DNA of 38,622 nucleotides from IMG/VR virus record IMGVR_UViG_3300009177_000071, positions 1-38,622 of that record. One strand, 5' to 3'. Positions 17,000 to 35,353 of this stretch are shown in pieces (the stretch's first letter is position 1; each line of letters starts with the position of its first letter). The DNA comes from a virus. The notes under the pieces are model-generated. The model was not told the DNA's origin. It saw only the letters and a program-made list of their open reading frames with translations, and made no database searches. The position numbers and the translations under genes were made by a program.

Positions 17000-17013
17000 G
17001 CGCGCGAGAGATA

Positions 17014-17180: not shown

Positions 17181-17330
17181 AAGAGCAAGCAATGAGAACG
17201 TGAGAGGTGAGCACGGCATGTCGACTCGTCGCTCGAACAGGAATTTTAAATTTAAATCTGGTTCTCGAATTCGGACTCGCGCAAGCTTGCTCGACTGCGC
17301 TCGATGGGTTCGAGGAGGGAGTCTGCCCTG

Positions 17331-17585: not shown

Positions 17586-17612
17586 CTTGATACATGAAGT
17601 GCCCCCGCGAGC

Positions 17613-17652
17613 GACCAGGCTCCGGGGGCGCGAACACCAAGGGAGGTGACCC
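17613..17652 (+). promoter_or_regulatory. Leader of the integrase gene with hairpin
   Basis: In the 70-base gap, GCCCCCG-N15-CGGGGGC forms a stem just before GGGAGGT, which lies nine bases before the integrase ATG. The stem may limit translation. It lacks the CGGTCAACC motif of the early array. Confidence 0.45.
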
Positions 17653-17655
17653 CTG

Positions 17656-18909: not shown

Positions 18910-18934
18910 CCTTCGATCCCAGCTCACGCCGACT

Positions 18935-18966
18935 AGAGGCCCGCGCAAGCGGGCCTCTTCTGTTTC
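18935..18966 (+). terminator. Rho-independent terminator of the integrase operon
   Basis: AGAGGCCCGC-GCAA-GCGGGCCTCT is a perfect ten-bp stem with a GNRA loop, followed by TCTGTTT. It lies 25 bases after the integrase stop. Confidence 0.8.
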
Positions 18967-18991
18967 CTGGGCAGACGACGACGCGAACTGC

Positions 18992-19010
18992 CCTGACCAA
19001 ACCCTGACCA
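18992..19010 (+). repeat. CCTGACCA arm-type cluster, left (2 copies)
   Basis: Copies at 18992-18999 and 19003-19010, spaced 11 bases and followed by GATG. Same orientation as the right cluster. Confidence 0.6.
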
Positions 19011-19176
19011 GATGGGCCTCGCCGAGCCGGGAACCCGCATGGATACAGGGGTTGAGGGCCACTGATCTGCTACTCGTCCAGTGTCCCAGGGGGGCATCAG
19101 GGCACATCTGAACGGCTCTGTTGAGCCAAATCCTCTCGCCGATACAGCGCTGAAACAGCCCCGTACAGCGACGAAC

Positions 19177-19206
19177 CCTGACCAAGCCCTGACCAAATCC
19201 TGACCA
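19177..19206 (+). repeat. CCTGACCA arm-type cluster, right (3 copies)
   Basis: Copies at 19177-19184, 19188-19195 and 19199-19206, each spaced 11 bases and followed by GATG. Regular helical spacing suggests cooperative protein binding. Confidence 0.6.
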
Positions 19207-19212
19207 GATGAC

Positions 19213-19295
19213 TTCAGGAACAGGCCCCGGCGAGACTCCTCCAGAAGAGCGCTCTTCTCGCCGAGGCCAGGTGCTCGCAACACCCTGTTCCTGAA
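19213..19295. repeat. Nested inverted repeat, 83 bp
   Basis: The outer arms are TTCAGGAACAGG (19213-19224) and CCTGTTCCTGAA (19284-19295). Inside are CGGCGAGA and TCTCGCCG, and at the centre the perfect palindrome AGAAGAGCGCTCTTCT (about 19243-19258). It begins two bases after the stop of the leftward 19297 gene. It could end leftward transcripts or be a protein-bound site within attP. Confidence 0.6.
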
Positions 19296-19296
19296 T

Positions 19297-19731
19297 CTAG
19301 CTTCGTCCGGCCTCGTCGATCTCGGTCAGATCCTCGTCGAGTCGATGCAGCGCCTTCGCCATCACCCTCGCCTTGCGACCCGGGATCGAGCGGCCGTCGG
19401 TCGCCCGCGCCGCGACCCCCATCGCCTCCGAGAGCAGATGCACCCGACTCTGCGCGTCGCCGATCCGGTTCGTCGTCCAGCCCGAGTGCTCGGCGTCGAC
19501 CAGTGTCTTGCCATCGACGAGCTGGTACAACCACGGCTCCCGTGGGCCCTGCGGCTCGGCGATCACGAACAGCGTGTCACCCTCGGCGAGTGTGAGACGA
19601 GTGCTGCGCATCGCTTTCCGGCAAGCGTAGACGGGCATGTTGACCCGCTCGGCGATGTCGTAGATCGACATCCCCCCGGGCGCGTCGGCGAGCGCGTCGT
19701 AGATCATTCCGGCGAGATCGTCCTTCTTCAT
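19297..19731 (-). CDS. Winged-helix-like regulator (144 aa)
   Basis: Residues 1-60 fit a winged helix: KDDLAGMIYDALADAPGGMS, then YDIAERVNMPVYACRKAMRS and a wing TLAEGDTLFVIAEP. The C-terminal half is less defined (DAQSRVHLLSEAMGVAARAT...). It starts three bases after the stop of the 19735 gene, so the two form an operon. The pair beside the integrase suggests lysogeny control; this is inference. Confidence 0.65.
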   Translation of the reverse strand: MKKDDLAGMIYDALADAPGGMSIYDIAERVNMPVYACRKAMRSTRLTLAEGDTLFVIAEPQGPREPWLYQLVDGKTLVDAEHSGWTTNRIGDAQSRVHLLSEAMGVAARATDGRSIPGRKARVMAKALHRLDEDLTEIDEAGRS

Positions 19732-19734
19732 CGG

Positions 19735-20460
19735 TCAGCCCTCCATCACCTTGGTGAACTCCGTGTCCCAGTCGATCCCTCCCCGCTCGCCCGTGATCCG
19801 GACGTCGATCAGATCGACGATCATCCTCAGCTTCGCGATCGAGTCTTCGAGCAGCTCGGTCTCCTCGGCATCGAAGTCGACGTCGCGAGCGATCGCGAGC
19901 GCCTGCCGCAGCCGCCGCATCGCGGCACCGATGTGCCCCTCGACCTCGACGAGCATGAAGTGGGAAGCACGACGGGAGTCCTTCTCCTTCTGCGCGGCCC
20001 GGCGAGCCTTCTCCCGGAAGTCGGCGACAGCAGGCAGCTCGTCGCTCACCGTCGTGCCCTTACGCTCGGCCCGCTCGCGGGCCGTGTCGAGCACGTCACG
20101 TACCTCAGCGCGCTTGCTAACCGCGGTGTTGCTGAATGATTTGCCGGTCGCAGCGGCAACCGCCTCGACCGCCTCCGCTTTCTCAGCCGCCAAGTTCGCC
20201 TGCTCGATGAAGTCCGTCAGCGTGACCGGCTCGCCGGGGGAGTGTCCGGAATTCCGGACGCTCCACGCCTTGTAGCCATAGGCCATGCGATGAATCGTCG
20301 CTCGGCCCCGCGAGACGCGGCGAGCATACTCGGCGATCGAGACACGATCGGGATTGCTGTCGTCGAGCGTCCAGTGCCAGCGGTGCTGCGCGAGCTTCTC
20401 GATCGAGCGCTGCTGCACCGACTCCAGCTCGCGATCGCGAACAACGAAACTCTCTGCCAT
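19735..20460 (-). CDS. HTH-containing helical protein (241 aa), candidate immunity regulator
   Basis: Residues 36-65 (DRVSIAEYARRVSRGRATIH, then RMAYGYKAW) form a helix-turn-helix. The rest is long helices rich in Ala, Glu and Arg (FIEQANLAAEKAEAVEAVAA and further), ending with a segment like that of an oligomerising DNA-binding protein. The frame opens at an ATG at 20466 that touches the Shine-Dalgarno GAGGAGG; the second ATG at 20460 has the right six-base spacing and is chosen. A promoter lies 35-62 bases upstream of it. It could be the phage repressor or a partition-type protein; the sequence does not decide. Confidence 0.7.
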   Translation of the reverse strand: MAESFVVRDRELESVQQRSIEKLAQHRWHWTLDDSNPDRVSIAEYARRVSRGRATIHRMAYGYKAWSVRNSGHSPGEPVTLTDFIEQANLAAEKAEAVEAVAAATGKSFSNTAVSKRAEVRDVLDTARERAERKGTTVSDELPAVADFREKARRAAQKEKDSRRASHFMLVEVEGHIGAAMRRLRQALAIARDVDFDAEETELLEDSIAKLRMIVDLIDVRITGERGGIDWDTEFTKVMEG

Positions 20461-20493
20461 AGCCATCCTCCTCGCGTCGTATTAGAACGGCCG

Positions 20494-20522
20494 AGTCTAC
20501 GACGTCGGAAGAGGGTTGGCAA
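20494..20522 (-). promoter_or_regulatory. Leftward promoter of the regulator pair
   Basis: On the minus strand TTGCCA (20517-20522) and TAGACT (20494-20499) are 17 bases apart, near consensus for the primary sigma factor. GGTTGCCAACC, a short dyad, covers the -35, and CTGTT-N2-AACAG lies just upstream, so repression or autoregulation is likely. Confidence 0.6.
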
Positions 20523-20537
20523 CCTGTTAAAACAGAA

Positions 20538-20556
20538 TCAGCCTCTCAGTCCGACG
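20538..20556 (+). repeat. 19-bp direct repeat, left copy
   Basis: TCAGCCTCTCAGTCCGACG is identical to 21172-21190, which is the 3' end of the lysin gene. The pair brackets a 615-bp segment with two divergent small genes. Confidence 0.7.
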
Positions 20557-20571
20557 AGATTGGTCACCGGG

Positions 20572-20841
20572 CTAGCGAGCCTGGTACGGGATGATTCCGG
20601 CCTGCTGCATCACCTGCATGTAGTGCTGCTGCAACGCCGGGTCGTGCGCGTAGTCGCCGTAGACCATCCGGCCCGCCAGCCGCTGCGCGTCGAACGGATG
20701 CATCCCTTGCTTGACGTACTCGTTCGACAGGTCGAGGTGCTGGTTGACGCGGTGCTCGATCCCGGCGTCCCAGTTGATCGCCGCCTGGGCGGCGTGGTAG
20801 GGCGCGGTGAGCGCCGTCTTGAAAGCCCCGAACGGATCCAT
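20572..20841 (-). CDS. Small hypothetical protein (89 aa) in a possible inserted cassette
   Basis: The protein begins MDPFGAFKTALTAPYHAAQA and is helical with many His, Gln and Tyr (QHLDLSNEYVKQGMHPFDAQ..., LQQHYMQVMQQAGI). It resembles tail or internal virion accessory proteins by composition only. GGAG lies nine bases before the ATG. It is separated from the upstream lysin by an opposite-strand gene and a terminator, so it needs its own promoter, for which I see no clear candidate. Confidence 0.65.
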   Translation of the reverse strand: MDPFGAFKTALTAPYHAAQAAINWDAGIEHRVNQHLDLSNEYVKQGMHPFDAQRLAGRMVYGDYAHDPALQQHYMQVMQQAGIIPYQAR

Positions 20842-20879
20842 CTTTTACACTCCTCGCTCGAAGCTCCCTTCCTATAGAT

Positions 20880-21068
20880 ATGGAAGAGAGCAAGCAGCTT
20901 CGATTCCCGTTCCAGCTCCGCGTCACCTCGACGCGCTGGCTGCTCGTCGACACTCGCAGCGGCCAGACCGTCAAGGACTACCCGCAGTCGAACGACGAGC
21001 TGTACCGTGCTCAGTTCGACCGCGACCAGGCGAACGCACTGCATCGACGCGAGCACGGAATCGGCTGA
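20880..21068 (+). CDS. Small plus-strand protein inside the leftward late region (62 aa)
   Basis: Codon use is strongly G/C at third positions, and the product looks natural (MEESKQLRFPFQLRVTSTRW, then LVDTRSGQTVKDY and a charged helix), so the frame is probably real despite facing against all late genes. No Shine-Dalgarno is visible; TATAGA directly precedes the ATG. It is followed by a strong terminator in the same direction. With the 20572 gene it forms a divergent pair between 19-bp direct repeats, as in a moron cassette expressed from a prophage. The family is not recognised. Confidence 0.6.
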   Translation: MEESKQLRFPFQLRVTSTRWLLVDTRSGQTVKDYPQSNDELYRAQFDRDQANALHRREHGIG

Positions 21069-21138
21069 CAGATTTTGCTGCCCCTTCGGGCAAGCCGCGC
21101 AGGGCGCACCTTGGCGTGGGAACAGAACGAGTGCGGAC

Positions 21139-21170
21139 AAGGAGCGGGCTTCGGCCCGCTCCTTCTTTGT
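21139..21170 (+). terminator. Strong rho-independent terminator
   Basis: AAGGAGCGGGC-TTCG-GCCCGCTCCTT is a perfect 11-bp stem with a UUCG loop, followed by CTTTGTCT on the plus strand. It lies between the plus-strand gene and the convergent lysin gene, and would also hinder late leftward transcripts. Confidence 0.8.
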
Positions 21171-21171
21171 C

Positions 21172-21190
21172 TCAGCCTCTCAGTCCGACG
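21172..21190 (+). repeat. 19-bp direct repeat, right copy
   Basis: Identical to 20538-20556. It covers the lysin stop codon and its last five codons. Confidence 0.7.
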
Positions 21191-22254
21191 TGGAGGTGGT
21201 TCCAGTGGTTGCCGCCCTGCGCGAGCGTCGTGTTGAAGATGATCTGCCACTTGCCGACCTGGTAGAGCCCGCCGCTCGTCTTCTCCGCTTTCCGCCACGG
21301 CATCCCGGCGGCGATCAGCGCGTCGTGCCCGAGCCGCGTCAGCGTGTGGCCGGAGGCGGGGATGTCGACGGCGTTGCCCTCCCAGTGATCCGACTGCCGG
21401 GTGTTGTTCGTGCCGGAGACGAACTGGTTGTGGTTCGTGCCGGTGCCGATTGTGATCGGGCCGAACTTCCCGGCGATCTGGCGCACGAAGTTCGTCACCG
21501 CCGGGTTCACGCCGATCCCCGCCCGGTTCGCGCTCGGCGCGAACGCGACCTTGCCGAGCTTGCCCTGCGGGAAGATCGCGCCGCCCATCATCGGCACCTT
21601 GCCGCCCGCCGTCCCGAGCGTCGGCATCTTCAGCGGCGGCGGCGTCCACGGCTTCTCGTCGAGCCGCCCGCTCAGCATCCCGCTGACCAGGTTGCGCACC
21701 TGCATGTCCGGGTTCAGGCCCGCGTTGTTGATCACGAACTGGTCAATCCCCGACGGGGCCGACGACTCCAGCGCCGACGGGCCGATGTCGGGCATCTTCA
21801 GGGTCGGCGGCGCCGTCGGCATCTTCATCCCGGCCATCGGCCGGATCGACATCGAGGCGCCCGGGTCGGCGCCCAGCTGCTTCATGAAGTGGCCGACGTT
21901 CGACGCCCACTGCGCCTCGTCGTTGCCGTCCGAGGAGGGCGCGTACTTTGAGACGATCGCCGCCGGGGTCGTGCGCCCCTGGCTGATGTAGCCGTCGCGC
22001 AGGCCCTTCGTGACCTGGGCGATCGACTCCTCCCAGCTCCCGAAACTGTGCCCCGCCCTGCCGCCCCAGCCCCAGGCGTTGTACGGGCGGTACGCATACT
22101 TGCCGAGCGAGGATTCGGCTCCGGCGATCCCGACCACTAGTCGCGGGTCGACGCCGTATTTCTTACCGGCGGCGACGAACACGTTGCCGAGCCCAGCCAT
22201 CGGCGAGCCGTTCTTGTGCAGAAACGCATCGATCTGCTGCACCTCATCAGCCAC
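21172..22254 (-). CDS. Virion lysin: transglycosylase-like plus M15-type peptidase-like domains (360 aa)
   Basis: Residues 20-125 resemble a lytic transglycosylase/glucosaminidase fold: VFVAAGKKYGVDPRLVVGIA, Glu47 in GAESSLG, then YNAWGWGG and SWEESIAQVTKGLRDGYI. After a Pro/Met-rich linker, residues 262-360 carry SDHWEGNAVDI (His290, Asp297) and NHWNHLHVGL (His353, His355), the zinc ligands of M15/VanY-like peptidases. One protein would thus cut glycan and peptide. It directly follows the giant protein and probably opens the wall during DNA entry. The GTG start overlaps the previous stop; the 3' end is duplicated at 20538. Confidence 0.8.
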   Translation of the reverse strand: MADEVQQIDAFLHKNGSPMAGLGNVFVAAGKKYGVDPRLVVGIAGAESSLGKYAYRPYNAWGWGGRAGHSFGSWEESIAQVTKGLRDGYISQGRTTPAAIVSKYAPSSDGNDEAQWASNVGHFMKQLGADPGASMSIRPMAGMKMPTAPPTLKMPDIGPSALESSAPSGIDQFVINNAGLNPDMQVRNLVSGMLSGRLDEKPWTPPPLKMPTLGTAGGKVPMMGGAIFPQGKLGKVAFAPSANRAGIGVNPAVTNFVRQIAGKFGPITIGTGTNHNQFVSGTNNTRQSDHWEGNAVDIPASGHTLTRLGHDALIAAGMPWRKAEKTSGGLYQVGKWQIIFNTTLAQGGNHWNHLHVGLRG

Positions 22255-25200
22255 CGGTCTTCTCCTTCGAGAGGTCGGAGCGGTACTCCTGCAGCGGCCC
22301 GAGCAGCGCATCCTGACGCGGGAAACCCTCGCTCTCGTTCCCGTACAGCAGGCCGTCCGAGTAGATGTCGAGACCGCTCTTGTTGATCTGCTCAGGTGGC
22401 GGCAGCACCCCCCGAGCGGTCGGGAAGGTCTTGAGGTAGAGCGAGTAGACAACCCGGGCCCGCTGCAGCGGCGACAAGGTCGGCTGCGCGCCCGGCCGCT
22501 TCGGGTGCCAGTCGGAGGACTGCCCGAGGTCGTGCTCCTGGCGCGCGACCTCCTCCTCGTACATCGTCTGGATCAGCAGCGCGTGGCGGACGCTCTTCGG
22601 GATCGGCATCGTTCCGCCCACCTTGTTGCGGCTTTTGACGAGCGAGGCCATCTTGTCGTCCAGCCGCTGCTGCGTCGTCTTCTTCCCGTTCTGGGTCTGG
22701 AAGGCGTGCAGCCGGTTCAGGTCGACCTCCATCGGCAGCACCCTGCCGACGCGGCGTTCGAGCAGCGCCTTCCAGTCGCGCCGGTTGTAGACCTTCGAGG
22801 CCTTCGTCGGGTCGATCACCTGGCGGATGATGCCGCCGAAGGGGACGAAGTTGACAGCCGAGTCGAACAGCGCGTCCTTGTGCGAGATCGGCTGCCCGTA
22901 GTCGTTCATGCCGGTCACGTTCTGCGTGATCCCCTGCCAGAGCGGGTTGAAGAAGTCCATCACGCGCGAGCCCTGCTCGCTCGGCACGTTGATCCGGCCC
23001 AGGTCGAGGATCGCCTGCAGCGAGCTGGCGGCGGTCGAGGTAGGCGAAAGCGCCCCCACGTTGATCGTGCGCGCGAACTGGCCGTGCTTCGTGATCGGGA
23101 ATAGGTCGCGGTACGCGGAGCGGACGTTGCCCATCATCGCCTTGCGCCTGTCCTCGGCAACCTGCCCGAGGTTGGCGCCGATCGCCGTCTCCACCGGGAA
23201 CTCTTTCGCGTAGTAGAACGGCCAGGCGGTCGCGCCGCGGATCCACGGCCAGATGAACAGCACCTTCGTGACCGTCTGGCGCTCCCAGTCGGAGAGCCGG
23301 TCGAAGTTGACCATGATCTCGTTCGTGCGGTGCGCGACGAGGTCGCGTCTGCGCGCGAGCGCCGTGCCCGGCTCCGCGTCGATCAGCCGCAGCATGTCCT
23401 CCTTCGTCCTGTAGCCCATGCGGCGGGCCTCGTACACCCAGGCCGCCATCCGCGGCAGCTTGTCGGGTACCGCCGTGATTCTGCGCAGGTAGCGCTCCTC
23501 GCGCTGCCGCAGCCCCTGCCCGATTCCGCGCCCGCGCGCGATCGCCGCCTGAGCGGGCAGCTCGCCCCCTTCCCCCGCGACCCTGATCGCGAACTCCTTG
23601 TCGTTCAGGAGCATCTTCGAGGCGCGCGTCAGGTTGGCGACGGCGAGCGGGCCCTGTTGAGCGAGCAGGTAGAAGTTGTTGGCGATGAAGTTGGTCGGGA
23701 TGTAGGCCGGGTTGGTGTAGATCAGGCTCCAGCGCGCGACCGTGTTCGACCAGTCGACGGCGCGGCTGGCGGTCGAGGTGCCACCGCGCAGCGGGCGGAA
23801 CAGGCCCTCGACGATGTGGCGGTCGATCACGCGGACGTTGTCGAGCTTCATGCGGGCGGCGAGCGCAGCGTCGGCGCTCTCGGCCCCCGCGGCCTGGATC
23901 GAGGCGCGCACGTCCTCGCTCTTCAGGAACGTGTCATCGACGTAGCGAGTGACGACTTCCTCGAGTTTTGCCGGGTCGCGCGCCTCCAGCGCGGTGAGCG
24001 CGTCCTGCACCTCGTCGGTCGAGGCAACCCCCGACGCGACCTTCTGGACGTGCGGCACCGGGGTGCCGTCCTTCTTGACCAGGAACACGTTGTCGGGGAT
24101 CGGCTCGTCGCGCCCGAGCGGCCGTCCCATGTCGAACAGCAGATCCTTCATCTCCTTGATGAACGCGAACGCCTGCGCGTTCTGCCAGACGTCGAAGATC
24201 ACCTTCGGGTCGGTGGAGAGATCGCCGTTCTGCCAGCGGTAGAGGTTGTTCTTGTTGTGCAATCCGAGCAGCGACTGGTCGACCTGGCCGATCACGCCGC
24301 CCTCCAGCCCCTGCGCCGGGCGGTCGACCCGCCGTGGCTCCTTGCCGCCGAGCGGCATGTGCGGCGCGTACTTGGCGGTGCCGCGGGCGAAGTCGGGCTC
24401 GATCAGCCCCTTGTCGACGAGGTGGTCGGCGAGCAGGTCGACGCGGTTCTCGAACACCGGGTCGTACTTGTCGCCGAACACCGTCTTGAGAATGTTCTCG
24501 CGCATCACGGTCAGCTGACCGAGCGCCGCCAGCGCCCCCTCGTAGCCAGGGCCGGTCGGGTTCGCGAGCGCCGCCTCGATCTGCTCGACCCGGCGCCGCA
24601 GGCCAGTGGCGCGGTCGACGTCGGCCATCGTCTTCTCCGCTTGCATCGTCAGCAGCTGCGAGCGGGTCGCGATCATCTGCGTCTGGTCGTCCTCGCTCAG
24701 GTTGTCGAAGCCGCCCGCCGCGTCGGCCTTCTCCCCCTGCTTCTCGTAGTCCTTCTGCAGCTTCTCGATCGAGCGGCTGTAGGCGCGCGCGTCGTTGCGG
24801 CGCCGTAGGTCGGCGAGCTGCTTGGAGGTGAACTCGAAGATCGCGTGCTGCTCCACGGAGCGCATGTCGTGCGGGATCGAGGTGGTCATGTTCGCGACCC
24901 GGAACACGTTCGGGTCGTCGTAGGATCCGAACATCTCGTCGAACAGGGCCTTCACCTCGGGCGGCGGCGGGCGCCCGATCCGGTTCATCGCCCCGTACGT
25001 CTCGCGGTAGCTGCGCTTCAGGTGCTGGAACACTGGCACCAGCTCCGGCGTCGGCGCGACACCGTCGGCGAAGTAGCGCTCCGACCAGCGGGCGAAGCGC
25101 TCATGATCCTCCGGCTCCCACTCGGCGAGCGGCTTGCCGACGAACGCCTCGACGCGGGCCCACTGCTCCGGGTAGGCGGCAGCGATCTCGCGCACGTTGT

Positions 25201-28200
25201 GCCCGTACAGCTCATGCAGCAGCGTCGAGACGTCCGCCTGCTGGGTGAGGTGGAGGATCCGCTGCCCCTCCGGCGTGTGCAGGAACTCGACGGCGCCGTA
25301 GAGGTCTTGCCCGCGCGTCTGGGAGAGCAGCGCGGGCGGGGTGACGCTCTTCTGTTCTAGGCGGGCTGCTCGCCCTCGGGCGGCAGCGCTGCGGGCTCCG
25401 GCGAGGTCGGCGTGACGTTCGACGGCTGCTGCGGAGTCTGCGCCGAATTCGTCTCTGACGGCTGCGGTGTCACTGGCGAGCCGATCAGCAAGTTGCCTGA
25501 ACCGAAGAACCTGTTCAGCGTCTCCTGTGTTGCCAAGCGCGCTTTCGATGGCATTGTCGTAACCCTCCGTTCCGGTTGACCAGTCGTTCTCGACCAGCTC
25601 CCCGTCTGATCTGAGCAAGTCGCGAGGAGCATCAGGGAAGACCTGGTCGAGCGCTGTCTCGACCTGTCCCTGGAAACTCTCATGGTAGCGCTTGCCGGGC
25701 AGGTGGTTGGGGAAAACCTCGTCGGCGAGCCCGGGATCCTTGCGCAGCAGCAGGCCCTCGTTCCCGGCGTGAACGACGAACACCCGCGTGGGCTGACCCT
25801 CCGGGTTGAGCAGCCGGTGAAGCTGAAGCGCCTCCTCGTCGGAGGCTCTCCGACCGATCGAGACCGCCATCGTGTCGGCGTGCTTGAGCGCCGTCGGCAG
25901 GAAGCCGCGCGCCCAGGCGACAGAGTTCTGCAACGTCGCCCGGCCGATCGAGGCGGCGACGTAGTTGAACATGTCGCGCTGAGTCGGGTCGACCGTGTAG
26001 GGATCCTCCCTGGCGCGCGTCGCGACCAGACGCAGCCGCGCACCCGGTGAGGCGACACCTTCGTAGATGCCGGGGCCGAACTCGCTGCGGCGGTGGAGAA
26101 CCCCGGCGTCCTGCAGGAACTGGTCGATCGGGCGACTGGTGGCGGCGAGGAACGCCTGCTGCGTCTCGGGATCCCAGGCCTTGTAAACGTCGTTGAAGGG
26201 GCCGACGTAGGTCGAGCCCGGCGCCGTCTCGTAGTTGACGATCCCGTGGTGGCGCCCGATTGCGTCGGCGAAGTCGACGTTGGCGCTGACGTCGTCCGAC
26301 TTGTCCTTGATCGCCGTCCAGATCGCCGCCTGCACCTGCTTCGGCTTCCAGCCGGTCTCCTTCGCGATCTGCTTGGTCACCGACTCGATCACGTCATAGC
26401 GGCCCTCGGACACGCCCGTGCGCAGGTAGCCGAACACGCGGGCCATCCACATGTCGGCGGTCACCTCGCCCAGCTCGGTCTGCCCCTTGTAAATCTTGTT
26501 GTCGGCGAGCGCCTTGCGCTGCTCGGCCTTGGTCAGATACCGCTCCTTCTTCCAGCGCGCCTTGTCGATGTCTTCGAGGAAGTTGCGGTAGAAGTTGTTC
26601 GTCTTCCGCCCGTCCCAGTCGCCCTCGCCGTCGAGCACACGCTGCGCTGCGGCCTTCTGCCAGTCCTGGCCGTTGTCGATCGGCCGCTTCATCAGCCAGG
26701 TGTTGTAGGCCTTGATCGCCTCGCCCATGTTCGGGATCACGGCCTTCTGGGGCGAGTAGATCGCGACCAGCTGGGCGATCTGAGCAGCCCGCTCCTTGTC
26801 ACCCCCCGCCAGCTCCATGATCGCGCGGGCGGAATCCTCGTACCACATCCGCCCCGACTCGCCGTGGATGCGCAACTCGTCGAGCAGCGCCATCAGCTGC
26901 TCCATCTCCCGCGGGGTGCGGCCCCGAGAGGGGAGCGCCCCGACCCGGCCCTTGTAGGCGGCCACCAGCCGGTTGGCGAGCGCCCGCCGTCCGGCCACCC
27001 GCGGCACCTGGCCCTTCGAGGCGCGCGAGCCGTACCAGATGCGGGCGTACAGCTCGTCCTCGCGCGCCTTGGCGAGCGCGTCCCTCGCCTCGACTCGCTT
27101 CGGGTGGTCGGCGTTGGCCTTGCCGGGATAGGCGCGCTTCGCCGCCACGTCGGCGACTTCGGCCTGGTCGAGCGTCTCGACGAGCCCGCGGTGCTCATCA
27201 TTGTAATAGAGACGGCCGGAGTCGCTGCGCGGGTAGGCGCCCTCGGGGTCGATCCGGTTGGCGTTCGCCGCGATCGCCGACGTCCTGGTCTGCGCGAGCA
27301 CCCCCTCGGGTAGCTGCGCGTCGGCGTGCTCCTGGATCATCCTGATCTCCTTCAACCCGAAGCCGGTCGGGTCGCTGTAGAACTCGCCCGGGTCGCGGTT
27401 GAAGTGATCGCCCCAGCGTCGCGCCGAGGTGTCGAACAGGTTCGTCAGATGCGCCGCCTCCTCGTCACTGACGCCGGGCAGCTCGTTCATCCGGTTGATC
27501 AGGGTGGTGCGCATCTCCGACTCGACCGGCGCCTGGCCGACGGTCAGCGCGTCGAGCTGCTCCTGCAGCGCGCTGCGCGTGTTCTCCAGCGTGCGCACGT
27601 CGTCGCGGGCGCCCTGGATCCTGGTGCCCTTCGCGACGTCGCCCAGCTCCAGCGAATGCGCACGGCCGCTCTCCAGCGCCGAGATGCGCTCGGTCGTCTG
27701 GTGCAGCGCGCCGCGGATCACCGGGATCTCCGGGTCGTCGGGCGCGAGCTTCTGCAGCTGCTGCTCCAGCGCGAGCCGATCGGTGCGCAGCTTGTAGATC
27801 GAGGCGGTGTAGACGCCCGCCTCGTCGGGGCCCTCGACAGCGCGTAGCCGCTCGCGGGCGCCCTTCAGGTGGTGCTCGTTCAGGAGCAGCGAATGGTGCA
27901 GACGCTCCTGTTCGTGGTAGACGTCCTCGACGCGGCGCCCCCAGCGCTCCTGCGAGAGCCGGTCGACCCCCGCCCGCATCGCCTTCACCTGCCGCAGCAG
28001 CTGCTGCTCGCGCGGAGTCAGCTTGCGAGCGGCCTGCGCCGGGCCCTCCTCCAGCATGTCCTGCGTGTTCTTCAGCGCCGCCTTCAGCCACACGTCCTCG
28101 GGGATGTCGGCGGGGCGCTGGTGGGAGAGGAACAGGCGCACGCCCTGCTCCGGCTCCTTGCCGAGATAGCTGTTGACCTGGTTCATCAGCGCGTGCGCCT

Positions 28201-29917
28201 GCGCGGCGTAGCGGCGCACCTGCTGCTTGGAGAGCTGCGTCTGCGCGCGCAGCCCCTTCTTCGTCTCCGAGAGCGGGAAGCGGGGCCCGGCAACCTTCTC
28301 GACGCCACGCGCGAGCGGGTCGCCGACGTTGCGGGTGATGCCGCGCCAGAGCGGGCTCTGCGACTCATGCAGCGGCACCTGGTAGGGGTCGATGTTCTTG
28401 CCCCTGATCGTGGCGGTACGCGACGGGCGCGGCGCCTCGACGCCGGGGGCGATCTCGCCGAGCCGGGTCGGGTCGCGCGACAGCCTGACCGCGTCCTCGA
28501 AGCTGACGCCGGGGAGCTTCCAGTAGCGCATCACCGACGCGCTCTTCGCGAGCGGAGCGGCCACCGCCAGTCCGTCGAGAGCGTGGATCAGCGGCTGGTC
28601 GAAGCCGTTCTTGACCGCCTGCTTCCAGGTCACGCCGGGCCCGTACTTGTTCATCAGGTCGTCCACGAACCCGTGGAAGAGCTGGCTGTAGACGCGGTTG
28701 CGGTCGTGACTGCTGATGCTCGGCTGGAGCAGGAAGCCGAGCGCGATCGCCGCGTCGCCACCGCCACGGATGAAGCCGACCGCCTCGTCGACCGAGCGGA
28801 TCGGGTGCGCCGCCATGCCGGGGATCGAGGCGGCGGTGCCGACCGCGACCTTGCCGAGCCCGCCGAGCACGTTCGCGGGGAGACCGCCCACCTGCCCGAG
28901 CGCGCCGGGTGGGACAAGCCCCCCGGCCTGTGCCGCCCCGGCCGCGGAGCTGAGCCCGAGCCGCGTCCCGCCGCCGACGTCCCCGCGTCCGATCTCGGTC
29001 GCGGCGCGACCAAGGCCGGTCACTGAGTGGATCCCGGAGCGCACCGCGTCGGCGACGTTCGCGATCGGTGCGCCGATGTCCCCGCGCGCGACCGCGATCC
29101 CGGCGCGAGCGGTGTCGATCGCGCCCTTCAGCGGCTGCTGGTGAAGGATGAAGTTGCCGATCGCCGGGGCCTCGACGGCGCCGCCGTGGGCGATGTCGCC
29201 GATGATGTGCCCGGCGCCGATCGCAGCCGGAGGAGCGCCGAGCACCGGCTGGTGCGTGAACGGGTCACGATGAACGGTGGGCAGAACAGCCTTGGTCACC
29301 CCTGCCACGGCGTGCGCCGCCGCGGCGAGCTTGTCGGTGTTGGCGCCGATCCCGAAGTCGGAGCGAGGCGCGTGGAAGGTCTGCGCGTCGCGCGCGACCT
29401 TGGTCGCGGCGTAGTCGGTCTCTTGCTCGCTCAGCTTCGCCGCCCGCTCCGCGGGGGTCAGCGAGGCGACGAAGTGCTTGCGCGCCTTCTGCCCCGTCTT
29501 GCCGGGCACGACGACGTTGCGCGCCCAGGTCGCCTGCTGGTGCAGGGTCGCTGCCTGCTCCTTCGCCGTCGGCGGCGTGGTGATCGTCGGCTTCAGCGGC
29601 CCGGTCGGGAGCGCGTGCGCGAACGCATGCGTGGCGATCCGCTTGACCTCGCCCTTCTTCGTCCCGAACAGCGACGGCGTCGCCGCTGCCACGTCGGTCG
29701 GCAGCAGGTGCAGCTTGCCCATGGTGACGGCGGCCTCGTCCTTCTCGCGCTGCGTCAGCGGCTTGCTCGACGGCACCTTCTTTGCTGCTGCGACAGCCTT
29801 GACTTCCGCCGGGTGCGTCGCCTTGTACTGCTGGAGAGTCTTGGCGAACGGGTTGGTGTAGAAGCTCTTGGCAGGCTGACGCCTGCCGCCCCTCGGTGGG
29901 CGGCGCGGTGGTGACAT
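22247..29917 (-). CDS. Giant internal/ejection-type virion protein (2556 aa)
   Basis: The N-terminus is basic and low in complexity. Gly/Ala-rich helices follow at 250-420. At about 1010-1240 comes a domain with IYSPQKAV, KTNNFYRNFL, TADMWMAR and VQAAIW, a pattern I know from phage proteins of unknown function (DUF7178-like). At 1568 STLLHELYGHN, with ERFARWSERYFADG.APT, resembles the zincin-like domain of polyvalent phage proteins, but HELYGH has one residue too many for HExxH. Near 2060-2260 lie AYIPTNFIANNFYLLAQQ and FIWPWIRGATAWPFYYAKEF, like large-polyvalent-protein domain 38. Such giants are usually injected with the DNA. It starts by ATG after AAGGGG, next to the previous stop. A short frame at 25357-25554 overlaps it. 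Confidence 0.85.
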   Translation of the reverse strand: MSPPRRPPRGGRRQPAKSFYTNPFAKTLQQYKATHPAEVKAVAAAKKVPSSKPLTQREKDEAAVTMGKLHLLPTDVAAATPSLFGTKKGEVKRIATHAFAHALPTGPLKPTITTPPTAKEQAATLHQQATWARNVVVPGKTGQKARKHFVASLTPAERAAKLSEQETDYAATKVARDAQTFHAPRSDFGIGANTDKLAAAAHAVAGVTKAVLPTVHRDPFTHQPVLGAPPAAIGAGHIIGDIAHGGAVEAPAIGNFILHQQPLKGAIDTARAGIAVARGDIGAPIANVADAVRSGIHSVTGLGRAATEIGRGDVGGGTRLGLSSAAGAAQAGGLVPPGALGQVGGLPANVLGGLGKVAVGTAASIPGMAAHPIRSVDEAVGFIRGGGDAAIALGFLLQPSISSHDRNRVYSQLFHGFVDDLMNKYGPGVTWKQAVKNGFDQPLIHALDGLAVAAPLAKSASVMRYWKLPGVSFEDAVRLSRDPTRLGEIAPGVEAPRPSRTATIRGKNIDPYQVPLHESQSPLWRGITRNVGDPLARGVEKVAGPRFPLSETKKGLRAQTQLSKQQVRRYAAQAHALMNQVNSYLGKEPEQGVRLFLSHQRPADIPEDVWLKAALKNTQDMLEEGPAQAARKLTPREQQLLRQVKAMRAGVDRLSQERWGRRVEDVYHEQERLHHSLLLNEHHLKGARERLRAVEGPDEAGVYTASIYKLRTDRLALEQQLQKLAPDDPEIPVIRGALHQTTERISALESGRAHSLELGDVAKGTRIQGARDDVRTLENTRSALQEQLDALTVGQAPVESEMRTTLINRMNELPGVSDEEAAHLTNLFDTSARRWGDHFNRDPGEFYSDPTGFGLKEIRMIQEHADAQLPEGVLAQTRTSAIAANANRIDPEGAYPRSDSGRLYYNDEHRGLVETLDQAEVADVAAKRAYPGKANADHPKRVEARDALAKAREDELYARIWYGSRASKGQVPRVAGRRALANRLVAAYKGRVGALPSRGRTPREMEQLMALLDELRIHGESGRMWYEDSARAIMELAGGDKERAAQIAQLVAIYSPQKAVIPNMGEAIKAYNTWLMKRPIDNGQDWQKAAAQRVLDGEGDWDGRKTNNFYRNFLEDIDKARWKKERYLTKAEQRKALADNKIYKGQTELGEVTADMWMARVFGYLRTGVSEGRYDVIESVTKQIAKETGWKPKQVQAAIWTAIKDKSDDVSANVDFADAIGRHHGIVNYETAPGSTYVGPFNDVYKAWDPETQQAFLAATSRPIDQFLQDAGVLHRRSEFGPGIYEGVASPGARLRLVATRAREDPYTVDPTQRDMFNYVAASIGRATLQNSVAWARGFLPTALKHADTMAVSIGRRASDEEALQLHRLLNPEGQPTRVFVVHAGNEGLLLRKDPGLADEVFPNHLPGKRYHESFQGQVETALDQVFPDAPRDLLRSDGELVENDWSTGTEGYDNAIESALGNTGDAEQVLRFRQLADRLASDTAAVRDEFGADSAAAVERHADLAGARSAAARGRAARLEQKSVTPPALLSQTRGQDLYGAVEFLHTPEGQRILHLTQQADVSTLLHELYGHNVREIAAAYPEQWARVEAFVGKPLAEWEPEDHERFARWSERYFADGVAPTPELVPVFQHLKRSYRETYGAMNRIGRPPPPEVKALFDEMFGSYDDPNVFRVANMTTSIPHDMRSVEQHAIFEFTSKQLADLRRRNDARAYSRSIEKLQKDYEKQGEKADAAGGFDNLSEDDQTQMIATRSQLLTMQAEKTMADVDRATGLRRRVEQIEAALANPTGPGYEGALAALGQLTVMRENILKTVFGDKYDPVFENRVDLLADHLVDKGLIEPDFARGTAKYAPHMPLGGKEPRRVDRPAQGLEGGVIGQVDQSLLGLHNKNNLYRWQNGDLSTDPKVIFDVWQNAQAFAFIKEMKDLLFDMGRPLGRDEPIPDNVFLVKKDGTPVPHVQKVASGVASTDEVQDALTALEARDPAKLEEVVTRYVDDTFLKSEDVRASIQAAGAESADAALAARMKLDNVRVIDRHIVEGLFRPLRGGTSTASRAVDWSNTVARWSLIYTNPAYIPTNFIANNFYLLAQQGPLAVANLTRASKMLLNDKEFAIRVAGEGGELPAQAAIARGRGIGQGLRQREERYLRRITAVPDKLPRMAAWVYEARRMGYRTKEDMLRLIDAEPGTALARRRDLVAHRTNEIMVNFDRLSDWERQTVTKVLFIWPWIRGATAWPFYYAKEFPVETAIGANLGQVAEDRRKAMMGNVRSAYRDLFPITKHGQFARTINVGALSPTSTAASSLQAILDLGRINVPSEQGSRVMDFFNPLWQGITQNVTGMNDYGQPISHKDALFDSAVNFVPFGGIIRQVIDPTKASKVYNRRDWKALLERRVGRVLPMEVDLNRLHAFQTQNGKKTTQQRLDDKMASLVKSRNKVGGTMPIPKSVRHALLIQTMYEEEVARQEHDLGQSSDWHPKRPGAQPTLSPLQRARVVYSLYLKTFPTARGVLPPPEQINKSGLDIYSDGLLYGNESEGFPRQDALLGPLQEYRSDLSKEKTGG
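25357..25554 (-). CDS. Out-of-frame gene embedded in the giant gene (65 aa), putative
   Basis: The start signal copies that of the early array: a short stem GTCG-AGAA-CGAC, then TGGTCAACC, GGAGG and ATG at 25554. From that ATG the frame changes from a typical shadow (Arg/Ser/Thr-rich) to a natural-looking protein that begins MPSKARLATQETLNRFFGSG and ends in a Pro/Gln/Thr-rich tail (PTSPEPAALPPEGEQPA). By my hand count about 52 of its 64 sense codons end in G or C, against about 40 of 69 in the giant frame over the same stretch; G/C-ending codons are the rule in this genome. It overlaps giant residues about 1455-1520. Function unknown. Confidence 0.5.
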   Translation of the reverse strand: MPSKARLATQETLNRFFGSGNLLIGSPVTPQPSETNSAQTPQQPSNVTPTSPEPAALPPEGEQPA

Positions 29918-29920
29918 GGG

Positions 29921-32059
29921 CTACGGCCCCTTGGGCTTCGTGTACTGGGCGATCACGTTGTTGGCGGCGGCGTCGACCGCCTGCATGATCATCTTCTTCT
30001 GGCCGGGATACCGACCGAGGAAGGCGTTGCCCCAGTTGTTCATCAGGTACTCGACGATCCGCTTCCGCGGCCAGACGGTCTGCGGACGGGTCATCCTGTT
30101 TATCTGGCCCGGGTTCAGTCTCGCCTCGACGCCCTCTTTCATCAGCTTGCCGAAGTTCGTGATGTCGGTGTAGCTCGGCACCGCTGTTTTCCCCGCCGAC
30201 TTGGCCGACGGGGTCGCGTCGATCGGCAGGCCCTTCGGGCCGATGATCGTGTTCGTCGGCAGCGGTCGCACCTTGCCGGTCTTCGGGTCGACGTAGGTGC
30301 CGAGCGCGTTGCCGCCACCCCAGGCCGGTGGCAGCTTCCCGGTCGCCTTGATGTAGGCGTTCCAGCGATTGATCTGATCTCGGCTCGCGTACTCGTTCTG
30401 CCTGATCTGGTTCGCCTGCGCGGCAACCTGGTTCGCCTGCGCCCTGACGTCGAGCGAGCCGCTCTGATAGGCCGCGTTGTGCTCCGCGATGAACTTGTCG
30501 ATCTTGATCTTCATCTTGTCGTACTGCTTCTTCCAGTTCAGCTCGGCGGTGGTGTTCGTGATCTTCGAGTTCAGGTAGGCGTCGTAGGTCGCGGCGCTGT
30601 TCATCTGCCGGGTCGCGTTCATCAGGTTGATCACCTGGTTGCCGCTGGCGGTGGTGGCAGCGGTGGCCGCGTTCAGCGCCGAGGTGGCCGCGTTCTTCAA
30701 CGCCACGCGGCGGTTGACGTTCGAGTTGAGGATGTTGACGTCGTTCTGCGACAGCGCCACCTTGCGGTTGACCGAGGCGTTGAGGGCGTTGACGACCTGG
30801 TTCGCCTTCGAGATGTCGAGGTTGCCCAGTGAGACGCCGAGGTTGCCCAGGTACTCGGTCGCGCGCTGCCCGAGGTTCGCTCCGAACTCGGTCTGCCGCT
30901 GGCCGAGGTTCTGCCCGAACTCGAGTTGGCGCTGCTTCAGCTGCGCCGTGTTGTAGGCCTGGTTGAACGCCTGGTTCTGCTGCTGGCTCAGCGCCTGGTG
31001 GTACTGCACCGTGCCCTGCGCCAGGCTCATCAGCTGCTGGATCTGGTTCGTGCGGTTCGCCTGCAGCACCTGCACCTGCTTGTCGGTCAGGTCGGGGCGG
31101 GTCGCGAGGATCTTCGCCCGCTCCGCGGCGGCGGCGGCCGAGGCGTCGGAGGCCTTCTGGATGTAGTCGCGCGCGATCGCACCCACCTGCTGGATGTTCG
31201 CGCCGCGCTGGAACTGGGTCAGGGTGGAGGCGTTCGCGGCCTGCTCGGCGAGGTTGCGCGCGGGCATCACGACGCCGGTCAGCTGCGCCACCGAGCGCTC
31301 GGCCGGGATGTCGTAGCCGCCGACCTGGTTCGCGAGCCCGCCGGTCATCTGCGAGATTTGCGCGGAGGCCTGGTCGGCCGCCTGCTGCTGCGAGGCGGCG
31401 ACGTCGCCGGTCAGGCCGGTGCCGAGCCCCTGCTCGAAGCGGGCCGCCTGCATGTAGGCGTCCTGGATCGACTGGCCGCTCGGGGCGCTGATCTGCCCGA
31501 GCGCCTTCGCCATCTCGTTCGCGCGCGTCGCCTGGCTCATCAGCTGCTGCTGCTCCAGCGCCGAGCTGCTCTTCTCCGCGGCGAGCTGCGCGTTGATCGC
31601 GTCGCTCGCGTACTTGCTCGCCTGCGCGTTCATCTGCGCCGGGGAGAGGATCTGCCCGAGCTGCTTCTGCAGCGCCGCGTACGGGTTCGCCCACGAAGGC
31701 TGGGCACCAGCGGCGCCGCCAGCGCCAGCGCGTCCAGCGCCAGCGCCTCCTGCGCCGCCCCAGTTGATGTTCGGGTTCGGAGCGATGTAGCCGCGGTTGA
31801 CCGCCGTCTGTGCCGACACCTGCTGCCGCTGCCGGTCGGCCTGCGTGTAAGGGGGGATCGTGTAGGGCTTGACGGTGATCGGCTTGTTGTAGGTGACGTA
31901 GCCGCGCGCGATCGCCTGCGCAGCTCCGCGCTGCGGCGTGTAGCCGGGCTGCGTGTACTGCGTCACCGCCGGGGTGACCTTCACCGTCGGGTTGGGCTGG
32001 ATCCAGCCGCCTGAAACAGCTGCGGCTCTGCCGCCGGGGCGTGGCTTCGGAGGGGCCAT
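29921..32059 (-). CDS. Ala/Gln/Asn-rich internal virion-type protein (712 aa)
   Basis: After a Pro/Gly-rich basic start (PKPRPGGRAAAVSGGWIQP...) and a Gly/Ala linker near 100-120, the protein is almost entirely helical and rich in Ala, Gln and Asn. There are internal repeats near 375-470: LGQRQTEFGANLGQRATEY and the paired NASVNRKVALSQNDVNILN / NSNVNRRVAL. This composition is typical of internal core proteins of short-tailed phages that are ejected with DNA. The ATG directly follows the stop of the 32060 gene, and it ends four bases before the giant gene starts, so the three form one unit. Confidence 0.75.
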   Translation of the reverse strand: MAPPKPRPGGRAAAVSGGWIQPNPTVKVTPAVTQYTQPGYTPQRGAAQAIARGYVTYNKPITVKPYTIPPYTQADRQRQQVSAQTAVNRGYIAPNPNINWGGAGGAGAGRAGAGGAAGAQPSWANPYAALQKQLGQILSPAQMNAQASKYASDAINAQLAAEKSSSALEQQQLMSQATRANEMAKALGQISAPSGQSIQDAYMQAARFEQGLGTGLTGDVAASQQQAADQASAQISQMTGGLANQVGGYDIPAERSVAQLTGVVMPARNLAEQAANASTLTQFQRGANIQQVGAIARDYIQKASDASAAAAAERAKILATRPDLTDKQVQVLQANRTNQIQQLMSLAQGTVQYHQALSQQQNQAFNQAYNTAQLKQRQLEFGQNLGQRQTEFGANLGQRATEYLGNLGVSLGNLDISKANQVVNALNASVNRKVALSQNDVNILNSNVNRRVALKNAATSALNAATAATTASGNQVINLMNATRQMNSAATYDAYLNSKITNTTAELNWKKQYDKMKIKIDKFIAEHNAAYQSGSLDVRAQANQVAAQANQIRQNEYASRDQINRWNAYIKATGKLPPAWGGGNALGTYVDPKTGKVRPLPTNTIIGPKGLPIDATPSAKSAGKTAVPSYTDITNFGKLMKEGVEARLNPGQINRMTRPQTVWPRKRIVEYLMNNWGNAFLGRYPGQKKMIMQAVDAAANNVIAQYTKPKGP

Positions 32060-33142
32060 CTACTTCTTCTTCCTGACGGCCGCGATCGCCTTCGACACGG
32101 CCGCCTTGGGGATGTTCACGTTCGGGGTGGGCGAGATGAACCCCGCCGACGCTGCGGCCTGGGCTCGCGTTCCCGCGTTCGGAGAAACCAACCCCGTACG
32201 TACCGTGGGAGTCAGCCTGGGGGCGACGATGCCGTTGATGCCGCCGAGCCCGCCGAAGTCCTGCGAGATCGCATCCGGGCTGGTGATCGCCTCCTCGCCC
32301 ACGTCCGGGTACTGGCCCTGCGCGTTCGCCGCCTTGTTGTAGCCGTAGATTTGCGCGAGCCGCGAGGAGATGTCCTGCTGCCTCGTCATCCAGTCCGCCT
32401 CGGCCTGGGTGCGACCGGTCAGGTAGTCGCTCTGATTCCCCGACAGCTGCTTCGCCAGCTCCTGCATCGCCTGGTTCGACGATGACTGGAACGCCTCGTT
32501 GTAGGCGGTCGCGTGCGTCTGCGCGGCGCCGGAGCGGGTCGCGCCTCGACGAGCCAGGTCGTACGGCATCGCCGACATCTGCTGCCCGAGCCCCTTGACC
32601 AGCTGCGCCTTGGTCGAGAACTGATTCTGCGCGGCGGCGGCGAGCGTCTCCGGGGTGATGTCCCCCGCGTACTCGCCGAGCGCGGAGCTGTTGAACTCGC
32701 CCGGGTTGTAGCCGCCAGCAATCACCGCCTGCTGGTTCGCCGTCCGCCGCGACGCCTCCAGCGCGTTGATGTTTGCGTTGCGCTGCGCCAGCCCGAGCCC
32801 GTACATCGGGTCGGACTCGATCTCGCCCACGTACGGGTTGAAGCCGAGCACGCCCGACGGGTTCGCCGCCGCGGCGCGGGAAGCGGCAGTGGCGAGGTTG
32901 TTCGAGGGCGGCGGCGGGGCGACGGGCGCGGCGGGAACACCGGTCGAGAACGTCGAGCCGCCCGGCGAGTAGTTCGCCATCGTGCCCGTGTTGCCGAGCG
33001 GGTAGTTCCAGCCGCTGCCGGTGTAGCCGATCGGCGCGGCCTTGATCGGCGCGGGCTTCGGTGCCGGTGGCGGCTTGTAGGCCGTGCCGCCGTACGCCTT
33101 GCTGCCGTAGGGGGCGTAGCTGGGCGCTGCTTTGATCGCCAT
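32060..33142 (-). CDS. Internal virion-type protein (360 aa)
   Basis: A Pro/Ala/Lys-rich N-terminus (YKPPPAPKPAPIKAAPIGY) and a Gly/Ser-rich linker precede a helical, Gln- and Ala-rich body (YGLGLAQRNANINALEASRR..., FQSSSNQAMQELAKQLSGNQ). The C-terminus has GFISPTPNVNIPK and a lysine tail. Related short motifs occur in the next protein. ATG at 33142 is chosen over the TTG one codon earlier because AGGAGG is too close to the latter. It is a probable minor core or ejection protein. Confidence 0.7.
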   Translation of the reverse strand: MAIKAAPSYAPYGSKAYGGTAYKPPPAPKPAPIKAAPIGYTGSGWNYPLGNTGTMANYSPGGSTFSTGVPAAPVAPPPPSNNLATAASRAAAANPSGVLGFNPYVGEIESDPMYGLGLAQRNANINALEASRRTANQQAVIAGGYNPGEFNSSALGEYAGDITPETLAAAAQNQFSTKAQLVKGLGQQMSAMPYDLARRGATRSGAAQTHATAYNEAFQSSSNQAMQELAKQLSGNQSDYLTGRTQAEADWMTRQQDISSRLAQIYGYNKAANAQGQYPDVGEEAITSPDAISQDFGGLGGINGIVAPRLTPTVRTGLVSPNAGTRAQAAASAGFISPTPNVNIPKAAVSKAIAAVRKKK

Positions 33143-33152
33143 CAAGCCTCCT

Positions 33153-33821
33153 TCAGGCGACGATGATGAAGTTCAGGACGATGAAGGCGGGGGTGTCGAC
33201 GGGGGCCGTCGCGGGGCCGTGGTGGTGGACGCCGACCTCGGCGCCCGCGGCCGAGCCGTAAACCTGCGCGTCGGCGCCCGCCGTGATTCCCTCCGAGGCT
33301 GCGCCGCCGCCGTCGCTGGTGCGGTGGATCGGCGAGCGATCCGCCAGCCCGACGCCCTCGTTCTTGCCGAGCGTGTCGACGGCGCCGTGCGTGCCCTTCC
33401 CGGCGGGGATCCGCCCGCGGATGTCGGGGACGTTGAACGTGCCGCCGCCGCCGCCGTAGCTGTAGCCGATCGCCGCGAACAGCCGCGCCTGCGAGGCGGT
33501 CGCGTAGGCGGCGCCGTCGCAGAGCAGCGAGCCCTCGGGGGCGCTGGTGGCGGCGAACGGGAGGATCAGCCCGGCCGGGAAGATGCCGAGCGTGCCCTTC
33601 CCCGCCCCGGCGATCCCGAGCGTCGAGCGCAGCCCGAGGATCGCGCTCATCGGCAGCGTCAGGTCGGAGCCCTCCAGGTACGCGACCAGCCAGGTCTTGA
33701 ACTGGATCGGCAGGCTGAGCGGGTCGGAGAGCAGCCGCTGCAGCAGCTGGTATTCCTGGTCGGAGAGCGGGCGCGCATCGGCGGGGCCGGTCGCGCCCTC
33801 GCCGTGCAGCGCGCTACTCAC
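33153..33821 (-). CDS. Tail-collar-domain protein (222 aa)
   Basis: Residues 80-140 match the phage tail-collar fold: GLILPFAATSAPEGSLLCDG, YATASQARLFAAIGYSYGGG and FNVPDIRGRIPAGKG. The C-terminus has the usual HHH-containing end and AFIVLNFIIVA. Such domains occur in collar fibres and short tail fibres. N-terminal helices (LSDQEYQLLQRLLSDPLSLP) probably attach it to the particle. The GTG start overlaps the previous stop by three bases, with AAAGGAG upstream. Confidence 0.85.
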   Translation of the reverse strand: MSSALHGEGATGPADARPLSDQEYQLLQRLLSDPLSLPIQFKTWLVAYLEGSDLTLPMSAILGLRSTLGIAGAGKGTLGIFPAGLILPFAATSAPEGSLLCDGAAYATASQARLFAAIGYSYGGGGGTFNVPDIRGRIPAGKGTHGAVDTLGKNEGVGLADRSPIHRTSDGGGAASEGITAGADAQVYGSAAGAEVGVHHHGPATAPVDTPAFIVLNFIIVA

Positions 33822-35353
33822 ACACGGCTCCTTTCAGCTGCGGTCGCCTCGACGCCGAGGTCGAACACGCGCGTGACGGTGGAGGGGACGAGCTGCCGCA
33901 CCTTGAACGCGACCCCGTACGGGAACTGGTTCACCGGCAGCCGGAAGCGGCGGTACTCGGTCGTCACCGGCAGCTGCCCGATCGTCGTGTAGCTCGTCTG
34001 CTGCGGCGAGCGGATGTAGCCGACCTCCAGGATCGGCGCAAGCGCCGCGAGCACGCTCGGCGGCGCCGGGGGCGGCGCCCCCTCATCGGACTTCGTCGTG
34101 TCGGTCAGGCCGCCGGAGATGCGCGCGTCGTAGGAGAGGTAGACGAATCGCACCCGCTTGCGGCCCTCCTGCTGCGCGAGCCGATACCAGGGGGTCTCGA
34201 ACACCGGCAGCACCGCGACGCCGTTGTCGTCGGACTCCTGCCCGTCAGGGAAGGGGAAGAAGCAGGGCCCCATGCGGGCGGTGCGGCTCGTTCCCGAGAT
34301 CCCCGCCCAGACGCGCTCCATGCCGCCGCTGCCGCCCGAGGCGATGTAGTCGATCGAGTCGATGTTCGAGAAGCGGAACCACTGCCTGGCGTTCAGGTCG
34401 CAGATCAGCGTGACCGGGCCGCCCGAGGATTGACGCAGCGTAATGATGTAGTAGTCGAGGAACGTGCAGGCGGCGAGCGAGGTGCGCGTCTGCCAGAGCG
34501 GGCGCCAGTAGGTGAGGATCCCGCCCTGGCTGACCAAATTCCTTATGACAGCGCCATCGGTGACATGGACGCCGTGCTCGTCGGCGAAGATCAGGTTCTC
34601 GTTCCAGTAGGCGATTGCCTTCGGGTCGGGACAGCCTGCGCGGGCGAACAGCGGCTCCAGGTTCAGGTCGTCGGAGGTGGTGCCGGTCGCCGGGGGCTGC
34701 GAGCCGCGGATCCGCTCGGTCGACCCGGCGTGGAAGACGATCAGCACCGAGCGCAGCGCGCCCAATCCGGTCACCTTCATCGAGGTGCGCTGGAAGCTGT
34801 TCACGTCCCAGCCGCTCGCGCTCATCAGGTCGTTCGAGGGGTGGCTGAACCTGACCGTGTCCTCCTCGCCGGAGCCGCCCCCGGTGACGACGTACTCGCC
34901 CCAGACCGTCCCGACCGCCGCGTTCGGCGCCGGGCTCGGCGCTCCCCCGAATGTCGAGGAGCGGATGATGATCGGAGGAGCCTGACCGAGCGCGTTGAAC
35001 ATGATCACGTCCTCGTAGCGCTGGATCGGGTTCTGCTTGCTCGTCCAGCCGCTGCTGCCGCGCAGCGAGATCATGTTCCCGGGCGGGAGCGGGTTGCAGT
35101 TGTAGACCGACCCCGCCGTCGTCTGCAGGATCAGCTGATCGCCGGAGGCGTAGGTGGCGAGCAGCCCCGAGATGACGTCGCCATTCAACGGGTCGGTGCC
35201 CCAGCGCCAGCCGCCGCGGCCGGTCAGCCCGGCGTCGATGATGAGCGGCACGTAGTCGACGACGTCCCACAGGTAGTCGCGGGTCATCTTGTCGCGCGCG
35301 AAGTCCCGGGCGAACGCTCGCGCGTTGCCGAGCAGCGAGGTCGGTGCGCCCAT
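33818..35353 (-). CDS. Probable tail/stopper protein, T7 gp12-like position (511 aa)
   Basis: The protein is beta-rich with repeated propeller-like strands (VISGLLATYASGDQLILQTT, SVLIVFHAGSTERIRGSQ, AIAYWNENLIFADEHGVHVT, VTLICDLNARQWFRFSN). It begins MGAPTSLLGNARAFARDFAR. Its place directly after the connector-like gene and before collar and core proteins matches the tail tubular protein B of T7-type phages and similar tail nozzle proteins. The frame is open upstream, but ATG at 35353 shares a base with the previous stop (TGATG), and the upstream extension is shadow-like. Assigned by context and pattern. Confidence 0.7.
   Translation of the reverse strand: MGAPTSLLGNARAFARDFARDKMTRDYLWDVVDYVPLIIDAGLTGRGGWRWGTDPLNGDVISGLLATYASGDQLILQTTAGSVYNCNPLPPGNMISLRGSSGWTSKQNPIQRYEDVIMFNALGQAPPIIIRSSTFGGAPSPAPNAAVGTVWGEYVVTGGGSGEEDTVRFSHPSNDLMSASGWDVNSFQRTSMKVTGLGALRSVLIVFHAGSTERIRGSQPPATGTTSDDLNLEPLFARAGCPDPKAIAYWNENLIFADEHGVHVTDGAVIRNLVSQGGILTYWRPLWQTRTSLAACTFLDYYIITLRQSSGGPVTLICDLNARQWFRFSNIDSIDYIASGGSGGMERVWAGISGTSRTARMGPCFFPFPDGQESDDNGVAVLPVFETPWYRLAQQEGRKRVRFVYLSYDARISGGLTDTTKSDEGAPPPAPPSVLAALAPILEVGYIRSPQQTSYTTIGQLPVTTEYRRFRLPVNQFPYGVAFKVRQLVPSTVTRVFDLGVEATAAERSRV

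Follow-up and report, generated by a model that had tools for sequence, protein, structure and literature searches.

A probable small gene overprinted in the linker of a giant internal-virion-type gene of a double-stranded DNA phage

The window, the whole stretch of 38,622 nucleotides of the virus record IMGVR_UViG_3300009177_000071, carries on its minus strand a giant late gene of 7.7 kb. Wholly within this gene, on the same strand and in its +1 frame, lies a complete small open reading frame with plausible start signals, running from the ATG at 25554 to a TAG stop codon at 25359-25357. Read along the minus strand, the small stem GTCG-AGAA-CGAC (25594-25583) is followed by a single T, the 8-mer GGTCAACC (25581-25574), GGAGG, nine nucleotides and the ATG. 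A sequence-only reading of this DNA had described the stem, GGTCAACC, GGAGG, the ATG and a 65-residue alternative frame, and we found all of them in place. The features of the locus, including those shared with the homologous contig L008 introduced below, are as follows.

22247-29917, minus strand: giant late gene of internal-virion type, 2556 residues, closing the late operon
25357-25554, minus strand: putative small gene of 65 codons, from ATG to TAG, overprinted in the giant gene's +1 frame
25564-25568, minus strand: Shine-Dalgarno (SD) sequence GGAGG, 9 nt before the ATG
25574-25581, minus strand: GGTCAACC, 8-mer identical to the early-array sites, encoding W-S-T of the giant protein, unchanged in L008
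25583-25594, minus strand: small stem GTCG-AGAA-CGAC, unchanged in L008
25555-25594, minus strand: 40-nt leader, identical in the window and L008, longest identical run of the giant-gene alignment, ending at the small start codon
25471-25554, minus strand: constrained N-terminal core, small-protein residues 1-28, MPSxxxxATQExLxxFxGSGxLLIGSPV
25360-25470, minus strand: proline/serine/threonine/glutamine-rich tail of the small protein, where the giant frame is the constrained one

No other out-of-frame open reading frame of 50 codons or longer within the giant gene has a strong SD sequence before it, which we judge to exceed chance. It corresponds to giant codons 1455-1519 and is thereby located between a match to DUF7178 (residues 1020-1118) and a zincin-like region (residues ~1550-1690). 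In Pseudomonas phage AF, a distant relative of the giant gene has internal virion proteins and a structural lysozyme as neighbours; the relative in phage HU1 is adjacent to a structural lysozyme, and that in a Methanomicrobiales virus to an internal virion protein. An NDW...G..Y motif encoded just before the small start is kept in the distant giant homologues, and the sequence after the motif is variable. Both the window (giant residues ~1568-1573, about 25199-25216) and L008 have HELYGH as the zincin-like motif itself; relatives from Pseudomonas and archaeal viruses carry HELGH, HEFGH or HEIGH. HELYGH is one residue longer than these and thus departs from the HExxH spacing.

The codon composition of the overlap departs from that of the surrounding gene. 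The earlier estimate by hand of about 80% third-position G+C for the small frame, against about 58% for the giant frame over the same bases, agrees closely with the computed values of 82% and 58%; the mean of the giant gene is 92%. With a codon score trained on the late genes, the worst-scoring 65-codon windows of the giant frame start at 25546-25561, almost coinciding with the small ATG; the combined codon and amino-acid score of the small frame is positive. The minimum of third-position G+C (GC3) in the giant frame falls over the small frame in both the window and L008 (0.57 and 0.62, with means of 0.92 and 0.93). We nevertheless rejected the dip by itself as proof of an embedded gene: low GC3 alone is no evidence, because 24 of 75 loci with giant-gene homologues, copies of the window phage counted, show such dips before the zincin-like region, mostly without an embedded reading frame. 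Pronounced low-GC3 stretches, within the 230 codons that precede the zincin-like region, mark about a third of these loci, and this linker seems prone to unusual composition.

The sole informative homologue of the small frame is found in L008 (contig IMGVR_UViG_3300010366_000040), whose giant protein is 51% identical to that of the window. The sole change in the bases just after the invariant leader turns the small ATG into GTG. The small frame of L008 stays open for 61 codons (7759-7944), and its predicted protein, VPSNLVPATQEDLDKFYGSGGLLIGSPVRRRPSGTSSQQTPPPPPSGTPSSPPSEPQQSQE, is identical to the window's at 31 of 52 positions, so that we count two independent lineages, the window and L008, as carriers of the small gene. 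The combination of a conserved giant frame with a stop in the small frame is not seen in L008. The claim of an overprinted gene starting from the ATG at 25554 is supported by this open frame, and by reduced synonymous variation of the giant gene in the leader and N-terminal core.

A further relative, L002, is a mosaic that is 98.6% identical to the window over 18 kb. Compared with window positions 16885-34500, it shows 6.3 kb without a difference (16885-23191) and then blocks diverging by several percent; from 25256 to 28418 there are three differences. We set L002 aside as evidence of conservation, because the small reading frame sits within this nearly identical block, which has probably recombined and whose identity is uninformative. 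A third copy of the small gene was found neither with peptide patterns, nor with a pattern for the leader DNA, nor by wider searches for the giant gene, and motif and profile searches of the collected loci gave no further copy. Searches of Pfam, PHROGs, NCBIfam, phages and plasmids returned no relative of the small protein, and scans of species genomes with the giant protein returned no relative either.

The comparison of the window with L008 separates the selection acting on the two frames. We counted those giant codons of the window that have A or T in third position and whose amino acid is shared with L008: 10 of 11 are kept in L008 in codons 1440-1484 versus 5 of 62 elsewhere (Fisher P=5e-8), with boundaries set after seeing the data; this choice matters little, because 11 of the 16 retained A/T-ending codons in the whole alignment fall within codons 1437-1519. 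Within the small frame itself, retention is 7/8 over codons 1455-1484 and 1/8 over codons 1485-1519, the tail, where no synonymous constraint was detected. At alignment columns with differing giant residues, GC3 of the core is 0.45 in both phages compared with 0.94-0.95 elsewhere; therefore, even changed codons avoid the preferred third base.

The substitutions can also be judged by their effects on each frame. Small codons 8-28 contain 14 changes, and the small frame is the only one in which these amount to conservative replacements (T/D, N/D, R/K, F/Y, N/G). When the same number of changes was placed at random, the small frame was conserved (z 2.63, P=0.004), whereas the giant frame (z 0.95, P=0.19) and the third frame (P=0.58) were not. 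Over small codons 29-52 it is the giant frame that is conserved (z 3.04), against z 0.89 for the small frame. Because of this switch, each of the two proteins seems to claim its own part of the overlap, with the core probably held by the small frame and the tail by the giant frame.

In a simplified pairwise version of the OLGenie approach (excerpted text of PMC7531306), dNN/dNS of the small frame is 0.53-0.56 (bootstrap P=0.027 for 0.53) and dNN/dSN of the giant frame is 0.48 (P=0.015); equally low ratios of this type occur in about 1-3% of 105 control windows. The small-frame similarity score of 140 exceeds the 51 (sd 17) predicted by a codon null calibrated with the remainder of the giant gene; control windows reach at most z 3.0. 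The excess is modest under a laxer, parsimonious codon null with average codon retention (P 0.014-0.06), and is gone once this null grants high local retention, so that the similarity signal rests mainly on codon retention, for which the comparison of A/T-ending codons is the direct test. A simple test of substitutions by codon position showed no difference, and has little power where GC3 of the giant gene is 92%. Taken over the two sequences, these results point to purifying selection of modest strength on the small protein.

From these patterns, we consider it very probable that the linker between the DUF7178-containing and zincin-like regions of the giant gene carries an overprinted small gene in the +1 frame. 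The foremost alternative is a nucleic-acid element at 25594-25470, such as a late regulatory RNA, a processing site or a protein-binding site, that limits synonymous change while the small frame is open by chance. The constraint is indeed strongest in the leader, with all 40 nt unchanged, and an open small frame comes cheaply in the GC-rich giant gene (P 0.75-0.91). However, such an element would not account for the changes in codons 8-28 being conservative in the small frame only (P=0.004), nor for the correct placement of the SD sequence and NTG start. The leader shows no excess of folding over shuffled sequences (z 0.16); its 4-bp stem is weak, and offers no covariation test because it is unchanged in L008. 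We therefore regard a nucleic-acid element as unlikely.

It is more improbable still that the giant gene has a recently acquired or weakly codon-adapted linker, in which low GC3 and a chance reading frame mimic an embedded gene. Even though the frequent GC3 dips of the distant homologues, mostly without a reading frame, fit such a linker, it leaves unexplained why A/T-ending codons are kept at 10 of 11 positions across ~50% protein divergence versus 5 of 62 elsewhere, which largely refutes it, and why the identity of the leader ends at the small start. A similarly slim chance attaches to a +1 ribosomal frameshift out of the giant frame near GGAGG, yielding a truncated giant protein with an alternative C-terminus. 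The small frame is +1 relative to the giant one, and an SD-like sequence together with a fully conserved stretch before the new frame would fit programmed +1 shifting; however, we noticed no canonical slippery site, the ATG or GTG is kept where the coding signal begins, and the SD spacing suits initiation.

The origin of the small gene is a separate question, on which the 8-mer bears. Ten sites on the plus strand of the window, located before early genes, have GGTCAACC, a short spacer, an SD sequence and a start codon. The early leader (1016-10580, plus strand) consists of a GC-rich hairpin, CTC, GGTCAACC, an A-rich spacer, AGGAGG and ATG. It is a real recurring leader, because further viral contigs, at least G003 and G005 (L153, L155, L156, L158), carry arrays of it; in these two we found no match to the giant gene. 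At 3259, unlike at the other plus-strand sites, GGTCAACC and GGAGG have no start codon close behind. On the minus strand, the copy at 25574 had been taken for the only one; there are three (25574, 30766 and 31795), of which that at 25574 alone leads into an SD sequence and a start, the other two being without a start.

The early-array signal may also govern the small gene, as had been proposed. In favor, the small-gene site keeps the early-leader order, with the SD sequence within about 2-7 nt of GGTCAACC and then the start. Against it stand the two minus-strand copies without a start and the absence of a GC-rich hairpin directly upstream: early sites usually follow such a hairpin, ending in CTC and much longer than the 4-bp stem that is all the small gene has in both phages. 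The conservation of GGTCAACC in L008 extends to the entire leader. This one copy is the only GGTCAACC of the L008 contig, a count that we left out of the evidence on the array because the contig is without an early region. The link to the early array is thus suggestive by layout only. The least probable of the alternatives, which concerns the origin and not the reality of the small gene, is that a stand-alone early gene was captured together with its GGTCAACC leader, as the sequence-only reading had also offered: the GGTCAACC-SD-start layout agrees with the early array, but the leader encodes the giant NDW...G..Y motif common to distant homologues without the small gene, and no free-standing relative was found in phages, plasmids or viral contigs. 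Because the leader is native giant coding sequence, in-situ overprinting appears more likely than capture.

For an overprinted gene of this kind, ribosomes would initiate within the late giant mRNA, at GGAGG, 9 nt and ATG (GTG in L008). The predicted product of 61-65 residues would comprise an N-terminal core, a helix followed by GSGxLLIGSPV, and a disordered Pro/Ser/Thr-rich tail whose sequence would be set mainly by the giant frame. AlphaFold2 gave no confident fold for the small protein (pLDDT 58.7) and a single helix at residues 10-17, a model of too low quality to serve as a structural query. By inspection, neither of the two sequences has a signal peptide or lipobox, a hydrophobic N-terminal segment or a cysteine. 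The small protein is presumably translated and would appear together with the giant protein; at a guess from genomic position and timing, made with low confidence, it may be an accessory of virion assembly or ejection. The composite picture, in which a dsDNA phage overprints an inter-domain linker, two proteins divide the overlap and an early translation signal is reused for a late start, is a tentative one that we hold to be doubtful as a whole.

Because gene callers usually forbid genes nested on the same strand, few are recognised in tailed dsDNA phages; the present case illustrates that codon composition and one homologue at ~50% identity can expose such a gene. It also points to the inter-domain linkers of giant virion proteins as favourable sites for new small genes to arise. 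The small gene, a sequence orphan, would credibly join the small set of nested genes described in tailed phages.

Among known systems, a close likeness is with the spanin genes of phage lambda, where Rz1, a small proline-rich protein, is encoded within Rz, in another frame of a larger late gene and from its own start. The small reading frame of the window likewise specifies a small protein in another frame of a larger late gene with start signals of its own. However, Rz1 is a lipoprotein that carries a signal peptide, and the gene around it is a small lysis gene, whereas the small protein described here has neither signal peptide nor lipobox and its host gene is a giant one of internal-virion type. 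In phiX174, genes B, E and K are overprinted in A, D and A/C, respectively, on the same strand and with internal ribosome binding sites. Unlike that tiny ssDNA phage under strong size pressure, the window phage is an integrase-bearing dsDNA phage under far less.

In the temperate dsDNA Pseudomonas phage Fc02, olg1 and olg2 likewise overlap in different frames (PMC9936078). They are reported to adjoin the repressor and to have superinfection-exclusion activity (PMC9936078), whereas the small gene of the window lies in a late virion gene. The division of the overlap has a parallel in the segregated overlaps of HIV-1, in which, according to PMC9119678, one of the two proteins predominates in each part of an overlap. 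The likely split of the window gene into core and tail resembles this arrangement, even though HIV-1 concerns retroviral accessory genes and the pattern in the window is drawn from two sequences. An overlap with one part held by the small frame and another by the giant frame would offer a model, open to testing, of the way in which overprinted genes are stabilised.
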